From positions 279,321 to 343,320 of the forward strand of contig NZ_JAVDDV010000003.1 in assembly GCF_030848565.1 (NCBI RefSeq): a stretch of 64,000 nt of DNA, read 5' to 3'. The notes beneath the pieces are model-generated. The model ran no database searches. It saw only the letters and a list, made by a program, of their open reading frames with translations, and was not told the DNA's origin. The translations under genes were made by a program, and so were the position numbers. Shown in pieces: positions 4,323 to 19,844 of this stretch (its first letter is position 1; every line of letters begins with the position of its first letter). The stretch is from Natronolimnohabitans sp. A-GB9. Its GTDB lineage: Archaea > Halobacteriota > Halobacteria > Halobacteriales > Natrialbaceae.

Positions 4323-4422
4323 CGTCGCCGCGGCGAGACAGTCGGCGAAACGTGGCGTCGTCGCCGTCGTTCGCCGGATCGGGGAGTGAATTCTTTGTCA
4401 GCGCGTGCCAAACACTCGGGCG

Positions 4423-5418
4423 ATGACCGACGCGTTCGACCTCGAGATCCGCCGTGCGACACACGACGACTACGAGGCCGTCGTCGAATTCACCAGCGAC
4501 ATCTGGCGCGACCGCGGCGGCGACTACATCCCCGATATCTACCATGACTGGCTCGAGGACGACGACGAGGAAGGGCGGAAGACCTTCCTCGCGACGGTCG
4601 ACGGCGAGGCCGCAGGTATCGTCCAGGCGGTGATGGTAAGCGACGACGAGGCCTGGTTTCAGGGAATGCGCGTCGCGGCCGAACACCGGCGCAAAGGCGT
4701 CAGCCACCGGCTCAACGAAGCCTGTTTCGACTGGGCCCGCAGGCGAGGCGCGACGATCGGTCGCGTCATGATCTTCTCGTGGAACCAGGCCTCGCTGGGC
4801 GCCGCGCGAACCGGCGGCTTCGAGCCCATCACCGAGTTTCGCTTTGCCCATCCCGATCCCGACCCGGACGCCGAGAGACCGGTCTCGGTCTCGGTCTCGA
4901 GCGATCCCGCGATCGCCTGGCGCTACTGGACCCACAGCGACGCACGCGAGCACCTGTCCGGTCTTGGACTGGCCCCAGAAGAGTCGTGGGCCGTCCGGGA
5001 GCTCACGCGCGCGGATTTCGAGCAGTTCGCCGACGAGAGGGTCGTCTTCGCCGTCGCGAGCGAAACAGGGCCCGCTGGCGCGGCCTACCGGTGTCGGACG
5101 TTCGAACGGACGGTCGACGCCGACGAGGTCGACGATCCCGAGCAGCCGGACTCGAACGCCGAATCGGCGCCGGAGACCGAGACGGTCGCCGAGTACGGGA
5201 TCGCCGCGTGGGACGGCATCGACGCTGCCCGCTCGCTGTTCGCGGCGATCGCCCGCGACGCCGCCGACTGCGGCGCCGACACGACCCGGGTGCTGATCCC
5301 CGAAACCGCTCGAACGGTCAGTGACGTCCCGTGTGTCGGCGTCGAGATCGCCGAGGAGCCCGACTTCGTGCTCGGGATCGATCCGACGGCGGCGAGTGAC
5401 CGAATCGAAAGATCGTGA
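4423..5418 (+). CDS. GNAT-family N-acetyltransferase
   Basis: The N-terminal half carries a GNAT fold: strand-helix IRRATHDDYEAVVEF, a strand AAGIVQAVMVSDDEAWFQGM, and the acetyl-CoA pyrophosphate loop MRVAAEHRRKGVSHRLNE, followed by the NQASLGAARTGGFEPI segment typical of motif B. The C-terminal half (about 160-331) is a second, degenerate domain of unknown role. I prefer the ATG giving MTDAFDLE; another start six codons upstream is open. Acceptor substrate cannot be told from sequence. Confidence 0.85.
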   Translation: MTDAFDLEIRRATHDDYEAVVEFTSDIWRDRGGDYIPDIYHDWLEDDDEEGRKTFLATVDGEAAGIVQAVMVSDDEAWFQGMRVAAEHRRKGVSHRLNEACFDWARRRGATIGRVMIFSWNQASLGAARTGGFEPITEFRFAHPDPDPDAERPVSVSVSSDPAIAWRYWTHSDAREHLSGLGLAPEESWAVRELTRADFEQFADERVVFAVASETGPAGAAYRCRTFERTVDADEVDDPEQPDSNAESAPETETVAEYGIAAWDGIDAARSLFAAIARDAADCGADTTRVLIPETARTVSDVPCVGVEIAEEPDFVLGIDPTAASDRIERS

Positions 5419-8276: not shown

Positions 8277-9464
8277 ATGGCTGACGGCCGGTCATGGCGT
8301 GATCGCCTCCCCGACAACTGGCGTCGGATTCTTTCGACACGGGCAGCCGTCACGCTCGCGCTGACCGTCGCCCTGCTCTCGGTCGCGACGGCGATCGTCA
8401 ACATCGGTACCGACGTCGTCTACAGACCGCTCGCGCCGTATCTCCCCGATGCCGTTCAGGACGCAGCCGGGTTCACCGGGGCGCTGACGGGATTCCTGAT
8501 GGTCGGAAGCGCGCTCGCGCTCCGTCGTGGCCTTCGTATCGGCTGGTGGGCGACGTTCCTGCTTCTCCCGCTGACCGCAGCACAGGGCTTTCTGCAGGCA
8601 AGCCAGTACTCGCTGCCGCTGATCGTCGTTTCGATCGTCGCGATGCCGGTGCTGTTGATCAGTCGAAAGCGTTTCACGAAACCGCTCTCGCTGAATACGA
8701 CGCAGATCGCCGCCGGAACAGCGTTGCTCGGCGTCCAGCTGTACGGCACGATCGGCGCGTACGCGCTCCAAGATAACTTCGAGGGCGTCGACAACATCCT
8801 CGACGCCTTCTATTTTACGCTGATCACCTCGAGTACGGTCGGCTACGGCGACATCACGCCGAACCCCGAATCGACCGAAGCGATGCTGTTTACGATGTCC
8901 GTCCTCGTCCTCGGGGTGGCCAGCTTCGGTATCGCCATCGGGGCGCTCGTCGGACCGGCGATCCAGGCTCGAATCTCGAAGACGCTCGGAAAGATGACCG
9001 ATTCACAGCTCGAACTGCTCGAGGACCACATCCTCGTCCTCGGCTACGGCAAACTGACGGAACCGATCGTCGACGAACTCGCGTCCAGCGACCGGGAGTT
9101 CGTCGTCGTCACGAACGATCGCGACGCGGCCTCGGAGCTCTCCGACCGGAACATCGCGGTTATCACTGCCGACCCGAGCGACGAGGAACCGCTTCAGCGG
9201 GCGAAGATCGACAACGCTCGCGCGGTCCTCGTCGCGACGAACCACGACGGCCAGGACGCCCTCTCGATCCTCACCGCACGCCAGCTTATGCCTGACGTCC
9301 GTATCGTCGCCGCTGCGACCGACCGCGAGAACTCCACGAAACTCGAGCACGCCGGCGCGGACATGGTGATCAGTCCCACCGTACTCGGCGGCCATCTGCT
9401 CGTCCGGTCGGCACTCGGTAGCGACGATAGCGAACTGATCGAGCGGATTATCAGCGAGGAGTAA
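8277..9464 (+). CDS. voltage-gated-type potassium channel with RCK/TrkA-N domain
   Basis: The N-terminal 215 residues hold several hydrophobic helices and a pore segment TLITSSTVGYGDITP whose TVGYGD is the K+ selectivity filter. After the last helix comes a cytoplasmic RCK (TrkA-N) Rossmann domain starting HILVLGYGKLTEPIVDEL, which gates the channel by binding nucleotide or ions. It lacks an obvious C-terminal TrkA-C domain: the protein ends at ELIERIISEE. K+ flux control is central for salt-in haloarchaea. The gene stands alone, 53 nt after the MITE. Confidence 0.93.
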   Translation: MADGRSWRDRLPDNWRRILSTRAAVTLALTVALLSVATAIVNIGTDVVYRPLAPYLPDAVQDAAGFTGALTGFLMVGSALALRRGLRIGWWATFLLLPLTAAQGFLQASQYSLPLIVVSIVAMPVLLISRKRFTKPLSLNTTQIAAGTALLGVQLYGTIGAYALQDNFEGVDNILDAFYFTLITSSTVGYGDITPNPESTEAMLFTMSVLVLGVASFGIAIGALVGPAIQARISKTLGKMTDSQLELLEDHILVLGYGKLTEPIVDELASSDREFVVVTNDRDAASELSDRNIAVITADPSDEEPLQRAKIDNARAVLVATNHDGQDALSILTARQLMPDVRIVAAATDRENSTKLEHAGADMVISPTVLGGHLLVRSALGSDDSELIERIISEE

Positions 9465-9497
9465 CCGACGACCGGGCGAGCGTCTCGCCGGAGAACG

Positions 9498-10862
9498 TCA
9501 CCGGCGTCGGCCGCGGTGGACGATCGCTACGTCGGCCTCGAGGGCGTCGAGTTTCCGGAACGTCGGCGGGGAGAGAAATCGTGAGGCGGCCGACCGATCG
9601 GTGCTCGAGCCGACGACGACCACGTCGTACTGCGGGGCGACGCGAGCGAGATACGACTCGACCGGTTCGGTGACGACGTGGGTCTCGAACCGGCCATCGA
9701 ACGCATCGAGGAGATTCGCGAGCGTGTTCTCGGCGATCCGCCGTTCGGACTCGCGATCGATACAGGTACAGATCCCGGTCGGCTGCCAGGTGCCGGTCAG
9801 CCGCTGTGCGAAGTCGACCATCGCGCGAGCGGTGTCGCCTGCGCCTCGCACCGCGACGAGCGATCGGTCCCACCCTCGACTGCCGTCGGCCGACCGGAAC
9901 GCGATGACGTCGCGTTCACTGTCGAACAACCCCTTGATGAACGGCGAGAGCCCACCCCGGTCGCCTTCGGCATACGGCGCCACCACGAGGTCACAGTTGT
10001 GCTCTCGAGCGGCCCGGAGTACGAGACCAGCCGTGCGATCGCCGGCGGCCACGGCGACCTCACAGGGGACGTCGTACTCCGACTCGAGGTCGTCAGCGAG
10101 GGACTCGAGGTGGCCAACCGCGTGGCCCGGTTCGTTCGTCGTCGCTGTGGCATCGTCGACGGTCTCGAACAGGACGACTTTCCCGGCCTCGTGTGCGCTC
10201 GCGAGTTCGGCGGCGAAGTGGGCCACGGCCGGGTCGCCCTCGCCGAGAGGAACGAGTACGTGGTCGTCGGCATCGGTCGTCCGGTAGAGATACTGGGCGC
10301 GTTGCTCGTAGAAGCGGTCGCGCCAGACGGCGAAGGTGACCGCGACGAACGCACTCGAGACGACGATACCCACCACGTAGGCGGCCTGTGCGTCACCGAT
10401 GACCAACACGAGCAAAGCAGTCGAGAACGCGGACGGCTCCTCGAGGTCGAGGGCCACGGTCGTGACGCCGGTAAAGAAGACGCCCAGTGCTGCGGCGGTC
10501 GCGCTGACGGTGCCGGCCGCTCCCGGCCCGCCCGCGAGTTCGAGCGCGATCCAGCCACAGAGCGCCCCGGCAGTCATCCCACCGACGAACCGTCCCGGCG
10601 TGGAGTATCGCCCTTCCGGATCGGCAAAGAGCGTGTACGTACCCGACGCCAGCGGGGGAAAGAGGAGAAACGACACGATCGGCGAGATGTTCGCCAGCCA
10701 CGTGACCGCCGCGATGAGCAGCGGGACGAACACGAGCACGGAGAGTTGCAACAGGTTTCCCGTGTGTTCGATCCACCGGACGAACGCGTCGAGTTCGCGC
10801 CGCTCGACGCGCCGGAGACGAACCGCGAGTGTTCGGACGTACGTCCGAATCGCCTCGAGCAT
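9498..10862 (-). CDS. HPP-family membrane protein fused to two UspA domains
   Basis: The N-terminal part (about residues 30-185) is an HPP-type membrane domain with four or more helices and a variant of the signature (FLLFPPLASGTYTLFADPEGRYSTPGR). The cytoplasmic C-terminus (about 205-454) consists of two universal-stress-protein domains: DDHVLVPLGEGDPAVAHFAAELA to DLVVAPYAEG, and WDRSLVAVRGAGDTARAM to YDVVVVGSSTDR. HPP proteins have been linked to nitrite transport in plants; that role is only an analogy here. It is convergent with the channel gene. Confidence 0.85.
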   Translation of the reverse strand: MLEAIRTYVRTLAVRLRRVERRELDAFVRWIEHTGNLLQLSVLVFVPLLIAAVTWLANISPIVSFLLFPPLASGTYTLFADPEGRYSTPGRFVGGMTAGALCGWIALELAGGPGAAGTVSATAAALGVFFTGVTTVALDLEEPSAFSTALLVLVIGDAQAAYVVGIVVSSAFVAVTFAVWRDRFYEQRAQYLYRTTDADDHVLVPLGEGDPAVAHFAAELASAHEAGKVVLFETVDDATATTNEPGHAVGHLESLADDLESEYDVPCEVAVAAGDRTAGLVLRAAREHNCDLVVAPYAEGDRGGLSPFIKGLFDSERDVIAFRSADGSRGWDRSLVAVRGAGDTARAMVDFAQRLTGTWQPTGICTCIDRESERRIAENTLANLLDAFDGRFETHVVTEPVESYLARVAPQYDVVVVGSSTDRSAASRFLSPPTFRKLDALEADVAIVHRGRRR

Positions 10863-10918
10863 GATAGCTGGTGCTGACTACGCGGCGAACGTTATACTAC
10901 CGGGCAAAACGAGTGTGA

Positions 10919-11554
10919 TTACTCGGGAGCGCTCTCGAGGATGTCGACCCCGCTCGAGGCGCCGATCCGTTCGGCGCCGGCCTCGAGCATGGCGACGGCC
11001 TCGTCGTAGCTACCGATGCCGCCGCTTGCCTTAACGGGCAGATACTTGCTCATACGCTCGACGTCCGGGATCGTGGCCCCGCCGTCGGCGAAGCCGGTCG
11101 ACGTCTTCACCATCGCCGCGTCGGCCGCTGTGGCAGCCTGACAGGCCCGATCGATCTCGTCGTCGGTCAACAGCGCGGTCTCGACGATCACCTTGACTGG
11201 GATCGGCACCGCAGCGACGACCTCCGCGAGTTCGGTACGGACGACGTCGTCTTCGCCGGCTTGCAGCCGACCGACGTTCAGGACGACGTCGAGTTCGTCG
11301 GCACCGGCCTTCCAGGCGGTGACCCCTTCGTGGCGTTTGACGTCGGGGTCGTTCTGGCCGTGGGGGAAGCCGACGACCGTCGCGATCGTCACGTCCGGAG
11401 CGTACTCGGCGGCCATCTCGACCGCGTAGGGCGGAATACAGGCGTTCATGCCGTACTCGCTGGCCTCGTCGAGGATCGCCCGGACGTCGGCGGGCGACGT
11501 CTCGGGACCGAGTACGGTGTGGTCGATCAGCGGCGCGAGATCGCTGCGGTTCAT
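10919..11554 (-). CDS. deoC: deoxyribose-phosphate aldolase
   Basis: DeoC cleaves 2-deoxyribose-5-phosphate to acetaldehyde and glyceraldehyde-3-phosphate during deoxynucleoside breakdown. The 211-residue product begins [18 protein letters not shown] and contains GFPHGQ, the cofactorless class I aldolase core [10 protein letters not shown], the conserved KVIVETALL and the Schiff-base lysine in MVKTSTGF, followed by VKASGGIG. The start at MNRSDL was chosen because the alternative upstream start adds nine non-conserved residues. Together with the uridine phosphorylase and ribose-1,5-bisphosphate isomerase further right it points to nucleoside catabolism. Confidence 0.95.
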
Positions 11555-11711
11555 ACGTACTGACAGTCCCCCCACGGGCAAAAATCCGCCCGATCACTTT
11601 TGCCCTCAGCTATCAATTATTGGTAATACGATTTCTTTATTCAGCCGCACGTTGTATTTTTCTCGCCCGATTCATCCTGATTCTGGTGTTGCATTGGTGG
11701 CCTGTTAGTCG

Positions 11712-12617
11712 TTACTCCTCTGATTCCTGACACTGTTCGTCGAGGGGCTTCAGTCGCAGTTCGCCGAAGCCGTATCGGGAGTGAGAGCCGACTCGTTGGA
11801 GGCCGTTCTTCGCGGTCTCCACCGGGCGGTCGCCGAGGTACTTCACGACCTGGCCGTGATCGACCGTCTCCAGCCGGAACACCTCACGCTGTTCGAGGAT
11901 CTTCTCCTCGCGGAGCCGGAGATCGTCGCGGTTCTCGCCCCACCACCACGGGACGGTGCGGTCGTTCGCCGCTGGATACTCCGACTTCAACACGAACGGC
12001 GTCACCAACTCGATGAGGGACGTCTCCGCGCCTTCGAGCCGCGAGTAGTCCAGTTCGTTGAGGTCCACCATCTGCGTGTCCTTCAGCTGGACCTCGCCGT
12101 AGCCGTAGTTGCGCTTTCCGCCGAACTGGAGGCCCTCCAGCTCATCCTCGCCGAGCGGGAGTACCGCCGGGTCATCGGCGTAGAGGTACGCATGGACGTA
12201 CCACTTCGTTGTCTGCTGCTGTTTCCGCTGGTCTTCCCGGCGGCCCATGATGGTCTCGTGAGCGAGCACCGGGTGGCCGCCCTGGACGCGGAGATCGTGC
12301 GTGTTCAGCGCGTCCCGAGCGCGGGTATCCAGCAACCACGGGTGCATCGCCTCCCGCTGGAGGAAGAGGTCGTCGTACGCCTCCACGTCGGGTAGGCCGC
12401 TCCCGAGGTACGGGCGGATGCCCGATTGGCTGTGTTCCTCCGGGAAGGTCCCGAACTGGCCGGGCACGAAGATGCCGTGACTGGCCGACACCGCCACGTG
12501 CGTCTCGGGGTCGAGGTGCTGGCCGAGGGCGTGCAGGATGGCGTTCCCGCTCACGTAGTACGGGTGGCCGATGTAGTCCATCCGCAGCTCCCACAGCACT
12601 TGCTGAATCGCCGTCAT
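11712..12617 (-). CDS. Cas5-like RAMP protein (HRAMP-type system)
   Basis: The 301-residue product has no hit I can name by close identity, but it shows two glycine-rich loops of RAMP/ferredoxin-fold proteins: GGKRNYGYG (166-174) followed by a beta strand EVQLKD, and GSHSRYGFG (277-285) followed by ELRLKP. The N-terminus DYIGHPYYVSGNAILHAL resembles the first strand-helix of Cas5/Csm4-like subunits. Last gene of the operon; its ATG overlaps the previous stop in ATGA, indicating translational coupling. Cas5 subunits hold the 5' end of guide RNA in known complexes; which RNA, if any, is bound here is unknown. No Cas6-like catalytic histidine assignment is made. Confidence 0.72.
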   Translation of the reverse strand: MTAIQQVLWELRMDYIGHPYYVSGNAILHALGQHLDPETHVAVSASHGIFVPGQFGTFPEEHSQSGIRPYLGSGLPDVEAYDDLFLQREAMHPWLLDTRARDALNTHDLRVQGGHPVLAHETIMGRREDQRKQQQTTKWYVHAYLYADDPAVLPLGEDELEGLQFGGKRNYGYGEVQLKDTQMVDLNELDYSRLEGAETSLIELVTPFVLKSEYPAANDRTVPWWWGENRDDLRLREEKILEQREVFRLETVDHGQVVKYLGDRPVETAKNGLQRVGSHSRYGFGELRLKPLDEQCQESEE

Positions 12618-13354
12618 CGGTCGGGCCTCCATTCAGCGTAGTCCTCGATGTACTGGAGTGCCGCGCTCCACGACTGCATCCGCCGAAGGTTGGCGTCGAT
12701 CGTCATATCGTATTTGTCGTGGTCGGTATCGAGCGGATGCGACGTCAGGCGATTCCACGCCGACGCCCATGACCGCCACGGGCGACTCCCGAGCCGGGCC
12801 GACGGATTCCCGTCCGCGCTCTCGTCGATCCGGAGCGCGAAGCGGTTGCCGTCGAAGACGGTGCGGAACGGGACGATGTCACCTGCCGGATCGATGATGA
12901 GACGGAGATCGGCAAACTCGTGGTCGGTGCGGTAGTTGTCCAGCAGCGCCGCCACGAGCAGCGTGTGGTACTTCAGCGAGGTATACGGGTGATACACCGA
13001 CTCGTTGAACGCGGCGGCCACGTCGGATTCCAGCCACCGTTCGTGGGCCGCCTCTGAGTCCTCGATGCCGATGAGGCCCGCCACCTCGCTCTCGATGGTC
13101 GCCCGTGAGAACTCACCGGGATCGTAGGCAGTCTCGCCGGTCAGCAGCGAGAGTCGGTAGTGATCGTCGTGAGTCGGGACGGTCTGCTCCTGCTTCTGCT
13201 GCGGGCGCGAGAGCGCCGCTGCGTCGCCGTCCGCGCCCTCGGGCACCGACTGGTTCACAGGGACACCAGCGAACTCCTCACGGGCGTCCTCGTGGCTCTC
13301 GCCAGTGAACTTATGGGCGTCGTGCCGGAAAGCGGTGAGCATCGCGTCGCTCAT
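12614..13354 (-). CDS. uncharacterised conserved protein between Cas7-like and Cas5-like genes
   Basis: The 246-residue acidic protein starts at MSDAMLTAFRHDAHK, its ATG overlapping the Cas7-like stop (ATGA), and its own stop overlaps the Cas5-like start. It has a low-complexity stretch at 30-60, a helical centre (SLKYHTLLVAALLDNYR, 126-142), a strand pair FADLRLIIDPAGDIVPFRTV and a Trp-rich segment RPWRSWASAWNRL (191-203). No nuclease or helicase motif seen. Its position fits the third, uncharacterised core protein of HRAMP loci; it could stand in for a missing large or backbone subunit. Confidence 0.6.
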   Translation of the reverse strand: MSDAMLTAFRHDAHKFTGESHEDAREEFAGVPVNQSVPEGADGDAAALSRPQQKQEQTVPTHDDHYRLSLLTGETAYDPGEFSRATIESEVAGLIGIEDSEAAHERWLESDVAAAFNESVYHPYTSLKYHTLLVAALLDNYRTDHEFADLRLIIDPAGDIVPFRTVFDGNRFALRIDESADGNPSARLGSRPWRSWASAWNRLTSHPLDTDHDKYDMTIDANLRRMQSWSAALQYIEDYAEWRPDR

Positions 13355-14204
13355 ACGTCTATCACGCATTCCGCGAGCGCCTCTTGGAACTCCGGCAGAT
13401 ACTCCTCTTCCCACCGGTCGTCCTTTTCGTCCATCTTGTTCGTGTTGCCCTTCCCGCGGTCGAAGATGCGGCGGAGCTCGTGTTCCTCGTAGAGCGGGTT
13501 CACAAGGTCGCAGTCCACGATCCCACCGCCGAAGTTCCGGGCGCCACCGAGTTGGTGCATGAAGTCGGTCTGATGCTCATCGAGGAAGTCGATTGCCTCG
13601 GCGAGCAGCGCGACGAACTCGGGCTTGGTCTCCCGGAAGGAGAGATGCCAGCAGCCGTCGAGGTTCCCGACAGCGTCCAGTTCGGCGTTCCGCAGCGGTT
13701 CGCGGTTGTCTTCCTCGTTCCGGGAGACGACGTTCCGATTGATGCGGCGGTAGTGGCCTTCGGCCTGGCCGCGCGTGTAGTCCGTCGGGAGACCGGCGAG
13801 AACTGGATTGGACGGCGCATCACCTTGCCGGGGCGGTTCCCGAAGCCGCCGAAGAGGTCGAGAATCACGCACCCGTCGTCGCCATCATCGTCGAGGCACC
13901 CGCCCTTCTCGTGGTAGCCGGCGTCAAGGTCGCGGTTGTAGACGCCGTCCTTCCGGAAGTTCGCGTTGGATTCGCCGGGGTGACAGGCAGTACCGCCGCG
14001 CTTCTGGACGACCTTCTCCATCCCGTGGCGAAGCCACCCGGAGAGCGAGAACGCCGGGATGATGCCGCCGATCTGGTTCTGCGGGTCGTTGTCTTCGTAG
14101 TTGCCGTTCGAGGCGTGGTGTCTGTCCGTTATGATGCTATCCCCGACCACCAACAGGTCGGTCTGAATCCGGACGAACACGTCGTGGTCGATGTCTTCAA
14201 TCAT
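13351..14204 (-). pseudogene. Cas7-like RAMP backbone protein, frameshifted
   Basis: Two overlapping reading frames together make one Cas7/Csm3-like protein of about 284 residues. The first (residues 1-138) has IIPAFSLSGWLRHGMEKVV, cysteines at 74, 103 and 112, LDLFGGFGNRPGKV and MRRPIQFSPV, the thumb-and-strand pattern of Cas7. The second resumes with PTDYTRGQAEGHYRR and ends with the helix ALLAEAIDFLDEHQ and the glycine loop HQLGGARNFGGGIVDC. The span is 854 nt, one base short of a multiple of three, and restoring one C on the coding strand in the CCC run near 13787-13789 joins the frames. It may be a real lesion or a sequencing error. Confidence 0.7.
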
Positions 14205-14209
14205 CGGTA

Positions 14210-14347
14210 TTATCGGGTGTTCAGTGCTATTTCGAGGGCGTCAAGACTCCCGTAGCCGACGCCGTCGATCCGGTATTCTGTATAGTTCTCACCATCGTCC
14301 GTTCGAACGATTCGAGCGGTCACGCGGGTGTCACTCGTCTCCATCAT
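14210..14347 (-). CDS. 45-residue small protein in the Cas5/Cas7-like operon
   Basis: A short frame beginning MMETSDTRVTARIV directly after the TGA of the 140-residue gene and ending LEIALNTR, five bases before the Cas7-like ATG. It contains VTARIVRTDDGENYTEYRIDG, an alternating pattern that suggests two beta strands, and one helix. Tight packing with both neighbours and haloarchaeal codon usage support translation. No family recognised; it could be a small structural or anti-toxin-like component. Confidence 0.5.
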   Translation of the reverse strand: MMETSDTRVTARIVRTDDGENYTEYRIDGVGYGSLDALEIALNTR

Positions 14348-14770
14348 TCACCTCTGCTCGTTGTGCTCCTCTTCCAGCTCATCAAGCAGATCTTCGGCGT
14401 CTGCCAGAACGTGACGGGTGTGCTCGAAGTCTGAACACCCCAGGCCGCTCCCGACAGTATCGTCTTCGATGGCTCTCCCCAAGCTGAGGAACGACGCATG
14501 GATGAACCGAACGAGGTTGAAAAGACGTGTCTTCGGGCTTTGGTTGTCAAGGACACCGATCCGTTCGAGGTCATCACTCACGCGCTCGAGGTACTCATCG
14601 GACCGAGCAACCAGTAGCCAGAACTCATCTTCAACGTCTTCGCCGTGCTCAATACCGTCGCTGATTCGGTGAGCGTGCGGGGCGACCTCTTCAGTGAAGA
14701 ACGACTGGGTGTTGATGGATATCTCTCGTCTGGCGATATACTCCCAGTTCGGCCCGTTGTCGCCAGACAT
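14348..14770 (-). CDS. uncharacterised helical protein of the Cas5/Cas7-like operon
   Basis: The 140-residue product is acidic and appears almost entirely alpha-helical (for example DEFWLLVARSDEYLERVSDD and TRLFNLVRFIHASFLSLGR, then a C-terminal DAEDLLDELEEEHNE helix). Its ATG overlaps the TGA of the preceding gene. Small all-helical proteins beside Cas5 and Cas7 genes in class 1 systems are often Cas11-type small subunits; size and helicity fit, but there is no sequence-level proof. Confidence 0.55.
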   Translation of the reverse strand: MSGDNGPNWEYIARREISINTQSFFTEEVAPHAHRISDGIEHGEDVEDEFWLLVARSDEYLERVSDDLERIGVLDNQSPKTRLFNLVRFIHASFLSLGRAIEDDTVGSGLGCSDFEHTRHVLADAEDLLDELEEEHNEQR

Positions 14771-14994
14771 CAGGCGGACACCCTCGTTTCGATGGTACGT
14801 GCGAGCGGCTCGACCGGGTCCTCGTCAACGGAGTGCCCATCTAGATCGAACTGCTGGACGAGCCCCCCGTTCTGAACGACAAGAATGGTGTGAGACGCTT
14901 CTTCGGTGTCCTCGCCCAGTACGATGTGGTCTGGGCGAACACCACTTCGCTTGCGAGCGATGCCTTCAATTGAGTTGGTGTTTGAGTTCTTCAT
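14770..14994 (-). CDS. uncharacterised 74-residue protein, first gene of the Cas5/Cas7-like operon
   Basis: Starting at the ATG giving MKNSNTNSIEGIARKRSGV, the protein has a basic N-terminus (IARKRSGVRPDHIV) and then strands SHTILVVQNGGLVQQFDLDG. A longer reading to 15048 would need a TTG start and is less likely. The stop overlaps the next ATG (TGATG). The small mixed alpha/beta product with basic N-terminus might bind nucleic acid; function unknown. Confidence 0.55.
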   Translation of the reverse strand: MKNSNTNSIEGIARKRSGVRPDHIVLGEDTEEASHTILVVQNGGLVQQFDLDGHSVDEDPVEPLARTIETRVSA

Positions 14995-15096
14995 GCTTCG
15001 TCTGGTTGGCGAAGCGCGGTCGAGCGTGCTCCAACACGCCCCGGCCAACTTCTGACCGGTGTTCCACGCTGCTCATCCTCATTTCTAGCCCCTGTT

Positions 15097-15140
15097 CACT
15101 TAAGAGTTACTTCGTAACATCTAATCAAACATCTTTAGTA
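15097..15140. promoter_or_regulatory. divergent promoter with GTTAC-TTC-GTAAC palindrome
   Basis: This AT-rich gap separates the Cas-like operon (minus) from the winged-helix gene (plus). It contains the palindrome GTTAC-TTC-GTAAC (15106-15118), a second related sequence AGTAACTTAC (15135-15144) and TATA-like CTTAAG/CTTTAG boxes for both directions. It is a plausible operator for the divergent winged-helix protein. Confidence 0.45.
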
Positions 15141-15178
15141 ACTTACCTTGAGGGTTCTCCCGAAACTGTAAGTAAAAC

Positions 15179-15436
15179 ATGAGCGTATTTGCAGGCATAA
15201 TGGTCAATGAGGAATTCGAACCCGATGAACGTCAAGAAGCCATCCTAGATGTTCTCAAAGAGGGGCGAGATGAAGGATGTCCATGGGGTTACGCGAACCC
15301 GAAACGACTCGAAGAGAGAATTGATACACGGAGGCAGTACATTAACCGTGCGCTGAAGGGATTAGTTGACGCAGGGTGGATAGAGAAAGTAAACCGTGGA
15401 CTCTACCGATTCGTTGCCGATCCGCGCGAGGACTGA
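15179..15436 (+). CDS. small winged-helix DNA-binding protein (PhiH1/MarR-like)
   Basis: The 85-residue product is one winged helix: DERQEAILDVLKEGRDEG, the turn WGYANPKRLEERIDTRRQ, recognition helix YINRALKGLVDAGWI and wing KVNRGLYRFV. Haloarchaeal proviruses and islands commonly carry such mini-repressors. An internal ATG (15200, MVNEEFEP) is an equally good start. Its GC content is lower than the chromosome average, like the rest of the island. Divergent position to the Cas-like operon suggests it controls that operon and itself. Confidence 0.75.
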   Translation: MSVFAGIMVNEEFEPDERQEAILDVLKEGRDEGCPWGYANPKRLEERIDTRRQYINRALKGLVDAGWIEKVNRGLYRFVADPRED

Positions 15437-15649
15437 GAGGTTTCTATAATCCCAACCGGTATCTATCCTCTCATTAACTTCGAAAATTAGCAAGTAAGAA
15501 AACTGAGCGCAAGAATTAAAGAATTAGTTCATTATAGTGACAGACACCTGTTGGCTATTGAGTACCTAGTTTGAACGCCGACTGATTCTCGGGCCGAGCC
15601 ACTGAATGAAACCGCCGTATTTTCAACTACTGCTATGCAAGGTACTCTC
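15437..15649. other. AT-rich gap at the right edge of the island
   Basis: About 200 bases of unusually low GC for this genome with stop codons in all frames and no recognisable gene, repeat end or tRNA. A TATA-like TATTTTC near 15617 probably belongs to the following isomerase gene. The gap marks the boundary between the accessory island and the metabolic cluster. Confidence 0.5.
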
Positions 15650-16633
15650 ATGGATGACCGTGGGCCAGACGTCGATTCGGCCGTCACGTCGACTGCCGAG
15701 CGGATCGCCGCGATGGAAGTCCGTGGCGCGGCGGCGATCGCCGACGCAGCCGCCGAGGCGCTCGCGACCCAGGCCAGGGAATCCGACGCGGACCGGCCAG
15801 AGGCGTTTACGCGTGAGCTCCGCGAGGCCGCACGCACCCTCTACGAAACCCGCCCGACCGCGGTGAGCCTGCCGAACGCCCTCCGATACGTCCTCCGCGG
15901 AATGGATGGTGACACCGTCGCGGAGCTGCGTGCGGCGACGATCGCCCGTGCCGAGGCGTTCCAACACGATCTGGCACACGCCCAGACGGAACTGGGTGCG
16001 ATCGGGGCCAACCGGCTGCGCGACGGCGACGTCGTGATGACACACTGCCACTCGACTGACGCGTTAGCCTGCGTCGAGGCCGCCCTCGAGGACGGCAAAG
16101 AACTCGAGGCGATCGTCAAAGAGACCCGGCCCCGAAAACAGGGCCACATCACGGCCCAGCAGTTACGGGAGTGGGACGTCCCGGTGACGTTGATCGTCGA
16201 CAACGCGGCGCGGCGCTACCTCGATCGAGCCGACCACGTCCTGGTCGGCGCCGACAGCATCGCCGCCGACGGCAGTGTGATCAACAAGATCGGGACCAGC
16301 GGGCTGGCGGTGTCCGCCCGCGAGCGCGGCGTTCCGGTGATGGTCGCCGCCCAGACGATCAAGCTCCACCCGGATACGATGACCGGCCACACCGTCGAGA
16401 TCGAGATGCGAGACGAACGCGAGGTACTCGAGGACGACCACCGAGCCGAGATCACTGGCGATGGCGACGGTGACAGTGACGGACTCACCGTCGAAAACCC
16501 CGCGTTCGACGTCACACCGCCGCGGTACGTCGACGCGATCGTCACCGAACACGGCCAGTTCCCGCCCGAGAGTATCGTGACGCTGATGCGCGAGCTGTTC
16601 GGCGAGACGACTGGCGAGCCGTGGGAGCCGTAG
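15650..16633 (+). CDS. ribose-1,5-bisphosphate isomerase (e2b2, eIF2B-related)
   Basis: The enzyme converts ribose-1,5-bisphosphate to ribulose-1,5-bisphosphate. Family signatures are AERIAAMEVRGAAAIADAAA, the catalytic region VMTHCHSTDALACVEAAL, ETRPRKQGHITAQQL, and the C-terminal aspartate block HVLVGADSIAADGSVINKIGT, shared with methylthioribose-1-phosphate isomerases and eIF2B. Length 327-332 residues is normal. A TATTTTC box about 30 nt before the second ATG favours that start; the first ATG (15635) is possible. With the PfkB kinase and uridine phosphorylase it supports a non-carboxylating pentose bisphosphate route of nucleoside degradation known in halophiles. Confidence 0.9.
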   Translation: MDDRGPDVDSAVTSTAERIAAMEVRGAAAIADAAAEALATQARESDADRPEAFTRELREAARTLYETRPTAVSLPNALRYVLRGMDGDTVAELRAATIARAEAFQHDLAHAQTELGAIGANRLRDGDVVMTHCHSTDALACVEAALEDGKELEAIVKETRPRKQGHITAQQLREWDVPVTLIVDNAARRYLDRADHVLVGADSIAADGSVINKIGTSGLAVSARERGVPVMVAAQTIKLHPDTMTGHTVEIEMRDEREVLEDDHRAEITGDGDGDSDGLTVENPAFDVTPPRYVDAIVTEHGQFPPESIVTLMRELFGETTGEPWEP

Positions 16634-16759
16634 CTCGAGACGCCTGGATCTCGAGGTCGAGAGGAACGAGCCAGCCGCTGGCGATCGACGGTACCCGTCA
16701 CTGGATCGGATCAATAGCAATCGGAAACTGTTAGTCGCTGGTAAGTGCCACGTACTGGT

Positions 16760-17581
16760 ATGGTGTTACCCGAGGGGTTCGTCCTTCCGCCGTGGTATCT
16801 CCTCGTCCCGATTATCGTGGTACTTGCGGGGGTCGTCGCACTGCTTTGGGCGCTCGAGCCGCCGGTGGCCGACCGGACGGTTCTCGCGTTCGCGCCGTGG
16901 ATGATGTTCGGTTCGGCCCTGCACGTACTCCACCGACTCGAGGCCTACCCCGACACGGTCGAGGTGTTGTTCGCCACACCGACCGTCTATCTGGTGACGG
17001 CGATCGTCGCGGGGATCGCCTGGATTATCGGAAGCGTCCTCTATGCCGGTGGGCTCCAGCCGACGATCGAGCGGTTCGTCGGTATCTCCGGGACCGCCTT
17101 CTTCGCGGTCTTCGCGATGATCGTCCTCAACGTCGGCTGGGCCGACGGGACGTTCAGTCTGTTCTGGCCGGTTATCGCGGTCGTCGGCGCCGGGATCGTC
17201 ACCGCACTCGCCTGGCTCGTGCTCGGGCTCTGGTTTACCGACGTCGCTGCAGTGACCGGCTACACTGGTGCGCTCGTCGTCTTCGGACACACGCTCGACG
17301 GCGTCTCGACGGCGATCGGCTACGACGTTCTCGGTGCCGGCGAGGAGGTCCCGCTCTCGCGGCTCATCCTGGAGACGGCCGGCGACCTGCCGACCGCCGA
17401 GTACATCGGCGCTGGCTGGCTGTTCATCCTGGTGAAGGTCGCACTCTCGCTTGTGATCCTTGGACTGTTCAAGGAGTACGTCGAGGAACGGCCCCAGCAG
17501 GCGCGGGTGTTGCTGGCAGCGATCGCCGCGGTCGGATTCGGGCCGGGCGTTCACAACGTCTTGCTGTTTATCGCCACCTAG
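16760..17581 (+). CDS. DUF63-family integral membrane protein
   Basis: The 273-residue product has seven or eight hydrophobic helices, starting with WYLLVPIIVVLAGVVALLW. Conserved polar residues inside the membrane, such as FGSALHVLHRLEAYP and GHTLDGVSTAIGYD, are characteristic of DUF63 proteins of Halobacteria. An in-frame GTG lies five codons upstream. The family is often found next to nucleotide-sugar isomerase genes in haloarchaea as here, but its biochemical role is unknown; transport of a pathway intermediate is a guess. Confidence 0.85.
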   Translation: MVLPEGFVLPPWYLLVPIIVVLAGVVALLWALEPPVADRTVLAFAPWMMFGSALHVLHRLEAYPDTVEVLFATPTVYLVTAIVAGIAWIIGSVLYAGGLQPTIERFVGISGTAFFAVFAMIVLNVGWADGTFSLFWPVIAVVGAGIVTALAWLVLGLWFTDVAAVTGYTGALVVFGHTLDGVSTAIGYDVLGAGEEVPLSRLILETAGDLPTAEYIGAGWLFILVKVALSLVILGLFKEYVEERPQQARVLLAAIAAVGFGPGVHNVLLFIAT

Positions 17582-17582
17582 A

Positions 17583-17589
17583 TTTTTTT
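17583..17589 (+). terminator. T-tract transcription terminator candidate
   Basis: Seven consecutive T residues follow the DUF63 stop codon by one base, in otherwise GC-rich DNA. Oligo-T stretches without a strong hairpin are the usual archaeal termination signal. Confidence 0.5.
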
Positions 17590-17619
17590 CGGACGGTCAC
17601 GTCTTCCTTGTCGTATCGA

Positions 17620-18507
17620 ATGGCCCCCACCGTACTCACTGCCGGGCACGTCAACTGGGACGTGACACTTCGCGTCGATCGGCTCCCCGTCGCCGACGGC
17701 GAGGCGACGATCCGTTCTCAACGCCAGTCCGGCGGCGGCAGTGCCGCCAACGTCGCCACCGCACTCGCCGGCCTCGAGGTCGACACCGGCCTGATCGGGA
17801 GCGTCGGCGACGACGACAACGGCCTGCTCGCCCGACGCAGCCTCGAGGAGGCCGGTGTCTCGGTGACGGGCGTCCGCGTCATCGAGGACGCCGAGACGGC
17901 CGTCAAGTACCTGCTGGTCGACGACGGCGGCGAGGTGTCGATTCTCGGTAACGACGGCGTCAACGAGGCCGTTCGGCCGGAGGACCTCGATCCGGATCGC
18001 ATCCGATCGGCCGAGCACGTCCACCTCACGAGTCAGCGCCCCGACACCGCCGCCGCGATCGCACGAATCGCGACCGAGGCCGGCGTCACCGTCAGTTTCG
18101 ATCCCGGACGGCGTTTCGGTGACCGCGAGTACGGCGAGACCCTCTCGAGGGCCGATATTCTCTTCGTTACCGAACGGGAGGCGACGGCACTGGCCGACGA
18201 GTCGGGCGCCAGCCGACGCCCGGACGATCAGCTCGTCGTCGTCACCTCCGGCGCCGACGGTGCCGAGATCCAAGCCGGCGACGAGACCTACACCCACGAC
18301 GGCTTCGACATCGACCCCGTCGATACCGCCGGTGCCGGTGACGCGTTCGCGGCGGGCTTTCTCGCGGTCCGACTCGAGGGCGGCGACGTCGACCGAGCCC
18401 TCGAGTACGCGAACGCCTGTGGCGCCTTGACGGCGAGTCGGGAAGGGGCACGCAGCGCACCGACGGCGACCGTGGTCGAACGCTTTCTCGGCGATCGAGA
18501 CGGTTAA
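17620..18507 (+). CDS. PfkB/ribokinase-family sugar kinase
   Basis: The 295-residue product begins MAPTVLTAGHVNWDVTLRVD. It carries PfkB signature 1 (QSGGGSAANVATALAGLE), a lid region (GDDDNGLLARRSLEEAG) and the C-terminal signature 2 with catalytic base Asp and anion hole (DTAGAGDAFAAGF). Because it lies between the ribose-1,5-bisphosphate isomerase and a uridine phosphorylase, a ribose-1-phosphate kinase activity feeding the isomerase is the best contextual guess; ribokinase or fructose-type kinase activity cannot be excluded. Cytoplasmic. Confidence 0.88.
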   Translation: MAPTVLTAGHVNWDVTLRVDRLPVADGEATIRSQRQSGGGSAANVATALAGLEVDTGLIGSVGDDDNGLLARRSLEEAGVSVTGVRVIEDAETAVKYLLVDDGGEVSILGNDGVNEAVRPEDLDPDRIRSAEHVHLTSQRPDTAAAIARIATEAGVTVSFDPGRRFGDREYGETLSRADILFVTEREATALADESGASRRPDDQLVVVTSGADGAEIQAGDETYTHDGFDIDPVDTAGAGDAFAAGFLAVRLEGGDVDRALEYANACGALTASREGARSAPTATVVERFLGDRDG

Positions 18508-18641
18508 AAACGTTTGGGACGGCGAGTTCGACTCGTCCCGGCGTCGTCTGGTGGTTCTCACCGGGTGGTGTCTGACGGTAGTTATATGGGCGGAGACGTT
18601 GGCCACTCGAATAGAAAGTCACGGAGACGTGACGGAGAGAC

Positions 18642-18947
18642 ATGACGGAACGAAGGATCAGCGAGTCCCCAGGATGCGAGTTCGAACGGCGTATCCAGTA
18701 CGAACGAGCCACGGACGAACCGCCGAGTATCGCCACCGCAATGGCGCTGGCACAGTACTTCGACGACGACGTCGAAGCCACCAGCGTACGGCTGTACGAT
18801 TACGTCGATCCGGACGCACTCGACGCCCTGTTTGCGGAGACCAACAGGGGAGCGAGTCGCACGACGGGAACCGTCGAGTTCCAGGTCGAAGACGCGACCG
18901 TCCGAGTTACGCCCGATCGTGTAGAGGTGAGTCCGAACAACGGCTGA
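18642..18947 (+). CDS. HalOD1 output-domain protein
   Basis: The 101-residue protein is a stand-alone HalOD1 domain: SIATAMALAQYFDDDVEAT, then LYDYVDPDALDALFAE, and the strand pair VEFQVEDATVRVTPDRVEV. HalOD1 is a small haloarchaeal domain thought to be a signalling output; molecular target unknown. Its TGA stop overlaps the first base of a degenerate MITE end. It is transcribed in the same direction as the nucleoside genes around it and might modulate them. Confidence 0.8.
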   Translation: MTERRISESPGCEFERRIQYERATDEPPSIATAMALAQYFDDDVEATSVRLYDYVDPDALDALFAETNRGASRTTGTVEFQVEDATVRVTPDRVEVSPNNG

Positions 18948-18970
18948 TTCTGTCGGACGGAACGATACTC
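18948..18970 (-). repeat. degenerate single end of the family 1 MITE
   Basis: TTCTGTCGGACGGAACGATAC resembles the MITE end TACTGTCGGACAGCACGAT. It begins directly after the TGA stop of the HalOD1 gene, the same register as the intact copies. The partner end is not visible. Confidence 0.4.
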
Positions 18971-19067
18971 GGCACGAGGGTGGGCCGAGACCGGTCGCAG
19001 ATCGCCCGACGGACGTTCGGGACCCGTCCTCGAATCTTTTTTCTCGCCGCCAGGGAAAGCGAGAGGT

Positions 19068-19844
19068 ATGGCAACCCAACCGCATCTGTTAGTCGACGAG
19101 GGCGACCTGACCGACCGCGCGCTCATTCCGGGCGATCCTGGCCGGGTCGACCGCATCGCCAGTCACTGTGACGAGAGCGAAACGGTCGCCGAGAACCGCG
19201 AGTACAAGGTGGTCAACGCCACCTACGAGGGCCAGGAGCTGACGATCTGTTCGACCGGGATCGGCTGTCCGTCCGCGGCCATCGCCATCGAAGAACTCGC
19301 AAACGTCGGCGTCGAGACGTTCATCCGCGTCGGGACGACCGGCGCCCTCCAGTCGGAGATCGAGATCGGCGACATGGTCGTCGCCACCGGTGCCGCGAAA
19401 AACGAGGGGACCTCGAAACGATACGAGGCCGTCGAGTACCCTGCCGTTCCGGACTACGACGTGCTGTCGGCGCTGGTCGACGCCGCGGAGGCGCACGCGG
19501 CCCAACGGGTCGCGGATAGTGCGAACGGTGAAACCGTGAGCGGAGACGAGGAGGTCCACGTCGGTCCGATCGCCTCCGACGATGCCTACTACGCCGAGTC
19601 CGGGGATACCGTCACCGACTGGGAGACTGCCGGTCTGCTTGCCGTCGAGATGGAAGCCGCCGCCGTCTTCTCGCTGGCCCGGCGCAAAGGACTGCGCGCC
19701 GGCGCGATCTGTACCGTCGACGGCAACCTCGTCGAGGGCACCCAGAAGGGGACCGACACCGAGGACGACGAACTCCCCGAGAAGGCAAAGAACAACGTCG
19801 GCCGCGCCATCGACATCGCACTCGAGGCCGCCGTCGAACTGTAG
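19068..19844 (+). CDS. udp: uridine phosphorylase / nucleoside phosphorylase
   Basis: The enzyme splits a nucleoside with phosphate into base and (deoxy)ribose-1-phosphate. The 258-residue PNP-fold protein shows LIPGDPGRVDRIA, the phosphate loop STGIGCPSAAIAIEEL, TFIRVGTTGALQ and the ribose-binding segment AVEMEAAAVFSLARRKGL. An oligo-T stretch in the upstream gap precedes the ATG by about 25 nt. The product ribose-1-phosphate is the substrate expected for the PfkB kinase two genes upstream. Uridine preference is by family; purine nucleosides remain possible. Confidence 0.92.
   Translation: MATQPHLLVDEGDLTDRALIPGDPGRVDRIASHCDESETVAENREYKVVNATYEGQELTICSTGIGCPSAAIAIEELANVGVETFIRVGTTGALQSEIEIGDMVVATGAAKNEGTSKRYEAVEYPAVPDYDVLSALVDAAEAHAAQRVADSANGETVSGDEEVHVGPIASDDAYYAESGDTVTDWETAGLLAVEMEAAAVFSLARRKGLRAGAICTVDGNLVEGTQKGTDTEDDELPEKAKNNVGRAIDIALEAAVEL

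Follow-up and report, generated by a model that had tools for sequence, protein, structure and literature searches.

The window analysed here, 64,000 nucleotides on contig C23 of the 4.3-Mb, 72-contig draft genome (G000) of the haloarchaeon Natronolimnohabitans sp. A-GB9, carries on the minus strand at 11712–14994 six close-packed genes, for products of 301 and 246 residues, a Cas7-like protein and products of 45, 140 and 74 residues. Together with a divergent winged-helix gene they are present as an earlier note on this DNA had described, which likened the operon to HRAMP (haloarchaeal RAMP), a system reportedly introduced by Makarova et al. in 2019. Two features were missed in that note: the whole locus is an inserted transposon of 4,019 bp (11614–15632) that also takes in the divergent winged-helix gene, and the Cas7-like gene of the locus is broken. 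The features of the locus and its flanks are the following.

10919..11581, minus strand: host flank, gene for a DeoC-type aldolase (Pfam PF01791, E 1.4e-7)
11610..11613, no strand: target-site duplication CTAT, low side (identical 4 bp at 15633–15636)
11614..11643, minus strand: right-end inverted terminal repeat, reading outward TGAATAAAGAAATCGTATTACCAATAATTG (E 6.7e-7)
11712..12617, minus strand: Cas5-like RAMP protein of 301 residues, Cmr3/Csm4 type (PADLOC Cmr3, E 2.6e-8)
12614..13354, minus strand: HRAMP-core protein of 246 residues, DUF8168 (PF26506 label on homologues)
13351..14204, minus strand: Cas7-like RAMP gene, Csm3 type, frame broken near 13780–13790 (PADLOC Csm3 in 22 of 25 intact relatives)
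14210..14347, minus strand: companion open reading frame (ORF) of 45 residues, with similar ORFs in some relatives
14348..14770, minus strand: companion ORF of 140 residues, rare (nine matches including itself)
14770..14994, minus strand: companion ORF of 74 residues, without Pfam match
15179..15436, plus strand: divergent winged-helix regulator of 85 residues, within the element (HVO_A0261_N/MarR matches under the cut-off)
15603..15632, plus strand: left-end inverted terminal repeat, degenerate, TGAATGAAACCGCCGTATTTTCAACTACTG (with matching duplication)
15633..15636, no strand: target-site duplication CTAT, high side (identical 4 bp at 11610–11613)
15650..16633, plus strand: host flank, IF-2B family gene (Pfam PF01008, E 2.2e-79)

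The element is bounded by 30-bp inverted ends with CTAT duplicated directly outside both. Its left-end candidate scores 29.8, the next best in the window reaching 8.4, and its GC content is 0.597 as against 0.66 in the flanks. The empty site is found in G001, the one further genome of this genus that entered the search, where the two flanking genes (DeoC-type and IF-2B family) lie next to each other at an equally short distance, the site being 81% identical to the window flanks over 596 nt. No transposase is present in the window element. The terminal 58 nt at its left end share 81% identity with the corresponding end of the transposase-bearing relative L130, and the part from the core to the right end is 91% identical to that relative, the middle part being different. 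Since the outer parts match and the middle differs, the window element would be a derivative that has lost its transposase.

The same ends were found across haloarchaeal relatives. The clade of the window was sampled as 70 loci (the window, L004, L006–L053 and L121–L140), of which 65 contain the 3' end of the Cas5-like gene, and 56 were left once identical right ends and flank starts had been removed. A stretch of about 30 nt downstream of the Cas5-like gene is common to nearly all relatives, with unrelated sequence beyond, and this stretch recurs inverted at the far side of the loci. The right-end score is at least 30 in 47 of the 56 loci, 20–30 in six and below 20 in three (L028, L032, L036); a right end scoring at least 20 thus adjoins the Cas5-like gene in 53 of 56 relatives, as compared with 2 of 1,007 control windows reaching that score, so that the ends bounding the window element are beyond chance. 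The right end lies 101–105 nt past the aligned Cas5-like end in 37 of the 47 strong loci, and 39 of 47 right flanks show a TA core in the 4-mer that is duplicated. A left candidate scoring above 19 is present in 26 of the 56 loci and absent from 30, many contigs ending early. An exact 4-bp duplication was detected by script in 14 of the 26, these elements measuring 1.7–10.1 kb, and the duplications of L021 and L047 match by eye with one-base indels.

The module occurs on both plasmids and chromosomes. Plasmid pNATPE01 of N. pellirubrum (L143) carries a complete 6,569-bp element with a GTAT duplication and an intact core, which also encodes a transposase (WP_006180988), a winged-helix protein and, at 4378–4960 next to the transposase, a ribbon-helix-helix (RHH) protein paired with a ParE-like one (match under the cut-off); its three core proteins are WP_006180980, WP_006180978 and WP_006180977. 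The genome locus L134 is assumed to represent this same plasmid. The complete element on pNRC200 of H. salinarum NRC-1 (L142) has its ends at 1998 and 8005, a GTAA duplication, the transposase VNG_RS11545 and the Cas5-like protein VNG_RS11520; the element carries a split DUF8168 gene and gave no Cas7-like match. An IS6 family transposase gene is also annotated inside the pNRC200 element. Viral contigs gave 13 pattern matches, none of them encoding a relative.

With regard to the core proteins, the RAMP glycine loops pointed out earlier are present, as GGKRNYGYGEVQL and HSRYGFGELRL in the 301-residue product and as LGGARNFGGGIVDC in the Cas7-like product. PADLOC Cmr3 models were matched by 28 of 29 members of the Cas5-like family (best E 6.9e-9), and one Csm3 model was matched by 22 of 25 intact Cas7-like relatives at E ≤0.1, the best E over all PADLOC Csm3 models being 2.6e-6. 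Furthermore, Cas7-like and Csm3 proteins share colinear motifs (IPAFSLSGWLRHGME / IPGSSLKGKMRSLLE, an LFG block and a C-terminal LGG loop). A comparison of profiles by hhalign with eight Csm3 and seven downstream proteins taken from 15 loci pointed the same way, though weakly: the Cas5-like family matched the unannotated genes in the Csm4 position with E 6e-4 and a probability of 28%, the Cas7-like family matched Csm3 with E 0.005–0.008, and DUF8168 matched neither Csm3 nor the Csm4-position proteins. A search of PDB sequences returned chance-level matches only, which for the Cas5-like protein included Csm4, matched at its glycine loop (E=1). Searches for homologues of the core proteins gave sets of 529 and 906 sequences. 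Homologues of the 246-residue protein carry the PF26506/DUF8168 label, and its gene lies between the Cas7-like and Cas5-like genes in both clades described below; it is a candidate for the uncharacterised HRAMP partner.

The HRAMP-like identity proposed in the earlier note is borne out by these Cmr3 and Csm3 matches and by the identity of the core genes, about 41–64% segment by segment, to nuclease-armed haloarchaeal loci. Its two negative claims also held, as there are no array-like repeats within 11000–16000 and a scan of eight ORF pieces at the window locus gave no nuclease family. Judged from the matches, the operon is HRAMP-related, with type III-like Cas5 and Cas7 signals: a Cas5-like protein, a Cas7-like protein, a conserved partner protein and the lack of a CRISPR array at the locus are all features of HRAMP, the associated HNH and PD-(D/E)xK nucleases being the feature that is missing. 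The 74-, 140- and 45-residue companions look like variable passengers; for the 140-residue protein, a possible role as Cas11-like small subunit was weighed in view of its size and seemingly helical character. Copies of the winged-helix regulator, 80–83% identical, are found at L029, L033, L036 and L037.

The '284-residue product' of the earlier note is not a single open frame, its sequence being spread over two frames, 13500–14204 and 13351–13872. Near 13780–13790 the window is about 4 bp shorter than three relatives (L009, L130 and L134), which splits the frame at this position; a continuous Cas7-like frame of 285–296 residues is found in 25 relatives. With the Cas7-like frame broken and the transposase missing, the window copy is probably inactive. 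The host genome contains a second HRAMP element (L004, contig C12), which is intact, 4,071 bp long and flanked by a TTAT duplication, as well as a fragment of a Cas5-like gene that is followed by a right end (L005, contig C72).

Across the class, the Cas5-like profile matched 80 of 292 genomes at E ≤1e-20, and the haloarchaeal family falls into two clades, one transposon-linked and the other nuclease-armed. The latter, sister clade was sampled by 20 loci (L101–L120, of which L101 and L102 are near-copies) among 35 matches listed, at about 2e-122 to 4e-94. No transposon right end lies within 600 nt in any of these 20 loci. A gene of an RNase H-fold cluster follows the Cas5-like gene in 18 of them (RNase_H_2, 2.1e-5, L119 scanned); an HNH-cluster gene is present in 16, with HNH detected in all four scanned (L104, L108, L116, L118), a 241-residue gene without Pfam match is present in three further loci, and L111 has neither. 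The three downstream gene clusters of the sister clade gave no tblastn match (E 1e-5) in the 70 loci of the window's clade except for L024 from Halosimplex pelagicum, in which both clades occur within about 11 kb (about 8361–10945 and 14483–19470) and the matches belong to the second, sister-clade copy. In a quick, midpoint-rooted tree of 67 Cas5-like proteins, with many forks open, the 43 transposon-linked members are united in a group of 44 with support 98, in which L028 is the exception, and the transposon label requires 2 changes as against 20 when shuffled. A HRAMP lineage without nucleases has thus come to belong to a transposon family. L036 and L032, without a recognisable end, branch just before the transposon-linked group; as a separate observation, these two, the earliest-branching in the window's clade, are also without the sister-clade nuclease genes.

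The transposase of L021, a protein of 609 residues encoded just within the left end, matches DDE_Tnp_1 (E 6.6e-10) and the ISH3 model NF033541 (E 4e-23, 82 bits, the family cut-off being 225 bits). With a match of at least 400 residues to the L021 or L134 protein taken as presence, a transposase is found in 12 of the 56 loci. Matches to the two transposase types in the host genome were all distant, the best being 46% over 77 residues and 53% over 56 residues. Movement of such elements in trans has a haloarchaeal precedent in ISH2, which lacks a transposase gene and, according to PMC10264941, is mobilised by the ISH8 transposase; ISH3-like transposases likely move the present elements in cis or in trans. 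The transposases of L123 and L024 (the left end of L024 being unknown) are 92–93% identical to that of L134, their Cas5-like proteins, of another subclade, 73–74%, which suggests that the transposase and HRAMP halves have swapped partners through recombination between related transposons.

Ends of the same family also enclose other cargo. The 885-bp element L145 (723–1607), without a duplication, carries a MazE-type antitoxin gene (PF04014, 9e-13); a 179-residue ORF in it is PIN-like by appearance, with no Pfam match. Toxin-antitoxin-type genes within the same end family fit persistence cargo. L146 (626–1509) is an 884-bp element without HRAMP and with a TTAA duplication, and L147 (G078:C1:1884100-1885500, about 547–810) is a 264-bp element of two inverted right ends without a matching duplication, from which it is suggested that the stretch from the Cas5-like gene to the terminus serves as a DNA end.

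Median ratios of nonsynonymous to synonymous substitution (dN/dS), taken over all pairs with dS of 0.15–1.2, which are not independent of each other, are 0.13 for the Cas7-like gene, 0.25 for DUF8168, 0.20 for the Cas5-like gene and 0.155 for the transposase (7 loci). The core genes are thus under purifying selection. Of the 56 loci, 35 have kept each of the three core frames whole, and 21 lack at least one intact frame, some through contig ends. Since 25 of the 35 intact-core loci have no transposase match of at least 400 residues, a linked transposase does not account for the selection on the core, which often outlives the transposase. Furthermore, the Cas5-like protein and the right end diverge together (Mantel 0.755, n=37), the corresponding relation between the Cas5-like protein and the transposase being weaker (Mantel 0.40, n=12).

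Possible guides were sought in the element and in the host. Insertion guided by a sequence encoded in the element is not supported, since element-flank identity is not above chance and only the TA core is shared; no motif at a fixed distance from the insertion sites was found beyond that core. Folding energies of −21 and −23 kcal/mol were obtained for two individual right-end sequences. A right end acting as an OMEGA-like guide RNA is unsupported, as a weak test gave no consensus structure and L147 suggests a DNA end. The host genome has an ordinary CRISPR array of about 136 spacers on contig C1, with a Cas1 gene (L144/L148), and guides could come from this array in trans. The host spacers gave short matches only to the window, L004 and L005, the best covering 19 of 41 nt, and this 19-nt match lies in host DNA beside the L004 element.

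Taken together, the reading preferred here, held tentatively and at a little under even chances, is that of a transposon-borne, nuclease-less, HRAMP-derived operon whose complex would bind nucleic acid and likely silence, rather than cut, competing mobile DNA. The Cas7-like, DUF8168 and Cas5-like proteins would assemble into a complex, which would carry an RNA guide of unspecified source and act by binding without cutting; the benefit would go to the element, with the complex kept as persistence cargo. A number of results speak against this proposal. The tests made revealed neither a guide RNA nor a source of guides: the longest element-flank match averages 11.5 nt as against 11.56 nt for the flanks of other elements (14 elements), no consensus RNA structure was obtained over 39 right ends, in a weak test in which shuffles also gave 0, and no Rfam family reached its gathering score. 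The hhalign comparison of Cas7-like proteins with Csm3 is modest (E 0.005–0.008, probability 5–7%), and the AlphaFold2 models of DUF8168 and the Cas7-like protein, with predicted local distance difference test (pLDDT) values of 46 and 43, are unusable for the fold. Nuclease families other than those of the sister clade were searched for in the window and in selected genes of other elements only. As to the ends, the duplication fails by script in 12 of the 26 loci with a left candidate and in ten of them by eye too, of which four have strong left candidates (L019, L028, L052, L135) and six weaker ones (L007, L015, L017, L032, L042, L045).

Persistence cargo that acts by binding only is nevertheless favoured over host defence and over control of transposition. 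According to the former alternative, the transposon would be a mere vehicle and the module would defend the host by binding invader nucleic acid and recruiting a host nuclease, a possibility raised in the earlier note. This agrees with the reading of HRAMP as a distinct defence system on account of its nucleases in PMC8730458, with purifying selection on a core often found without a transposase, and with the occurrence of the module on plasmids as well as chromosomes. Host defence is considered unlikely, though not to be dismissed lightly, since the nuclease genes of the sister clade (RNase H-fold in 18 of 20, HNH in 16 of 20) are absent here, which would be unexpected for an undiminished defence role, and the long-standing association with the right end (Mantel 0.755, n=37) is tighter than a mere vehicle requires. 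Alternatively, the nuclease-less complex may control the movement, target choice or copy limit of its own transposon, given that the absence of nucleases coincides with the transposon, as in CRISPR-associated transposons (CASTs), and that the Cas5-like gene is fixed beside the right end and both diverge together. However, insertion sites have only the TA core in common (39 of 47), elements and their flanks are no more alike than expected by chance, transposases have apparently changed partners (L123 and L024 as against L134), and elements with the same ends exist without HRAMP (L146, L147), so that this alternative is judged rather improbable.

The boldest form of the latter idea, to which a similarly low probability is given, would be an independent archaeal CRISPR-associated transposon, in which an array-less, type III-derived complex shed its nucleases on capture by an ISH3-like transposon and now governs transposition or copy number through guides that come in trans, for instance from the host array. 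It is very unlikely that the operon is a hitchhiking relic without a present role. The broken Cas7-like frame of the window, the 21 of 56 loci without a full core (some by contig end) and the complete pNRC200 element with its split DUF8168 and no Cas7-like match would agree with decay, but purifying selection is family-wide, all three frames are present in 35 of 56 loci and the intact L004 resides in the same genome.

The puzzle of HRAMP is that of CRISPR effector parts without an array, and one lineage of it is now placed in a transposon family. Should the nucleases have been lost here, and not acquired by the sister clade, the lineage would add a further, separate case of a CRISPR effector without nucleases in a mobile element, with another transposase. 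Complete named elements are at hand to work with, intact on pNATPE01 and with a decayed core on pNRC200 of NRC-1, and the role of an array-less, nuclease-less effector becomes testable via three genes. No link between HRAMP and transposons was found in the literature searched, which was available in part; the original 2019 HRAMP and ARAMP papers lay outside that search.

Among the closest known systems, ISH3 insertion sequences share with the present elements the short duplications and, through the L021 transposase, the match to NF033541, but here the score is only 82 of the 225 bits, the protein is larger (609–626 residues) and the cargo comprises several genes. OMEGA systems (TnpB/IscB) offer an analogy in that the gene for a guide-binding protein lies near the transposon right end, but no TnpB/IscB-type nuclease is found among the window ORFs and no right-end RNA structure was found in a weak test. 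Tn7-like CASTs carry a CRISPR effector without a nuclease near one end of a DDE transposon; in the present elements, nuclease-less CRISPR effector genes are likewise enclosed by defined transposon ends, but the transposase, as scanned in L021, is of the ISH3/IS4 type rather than Tn7-like, the element yielded neither an array nor a guide, and nothing points to guided insertion. The sister clade (L101–L120) has the same gene order, Cas7-like, DUF8168, Cas5-like, with Cas5-like proteins 43–54% identical to that of the window, and differs in the RNase H-fold (18 of 20) and HNH (16 of 20) genes that follow and in having no transposon end within 600 nt. HRAMP, as described in two reviews, has associated nucleases, HNH and PD-(D/E)xK (PMC8730458, PMC12669027), and shares with the present operon Cas5-like and Cas7-like proteins of type III affinity, a conserved partner, haloarchaeal hosts and the lack of an array at the locus; here, no associated nucleases were seen, the cassette lies inside a transposon and some copies have an ISH3-like transposase. 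Measured against these reviews, the operon is a nuclease-less, transposon-borne HRAMP variant, which departs from HRAMP in the nuclease feature and from CASTs in two.

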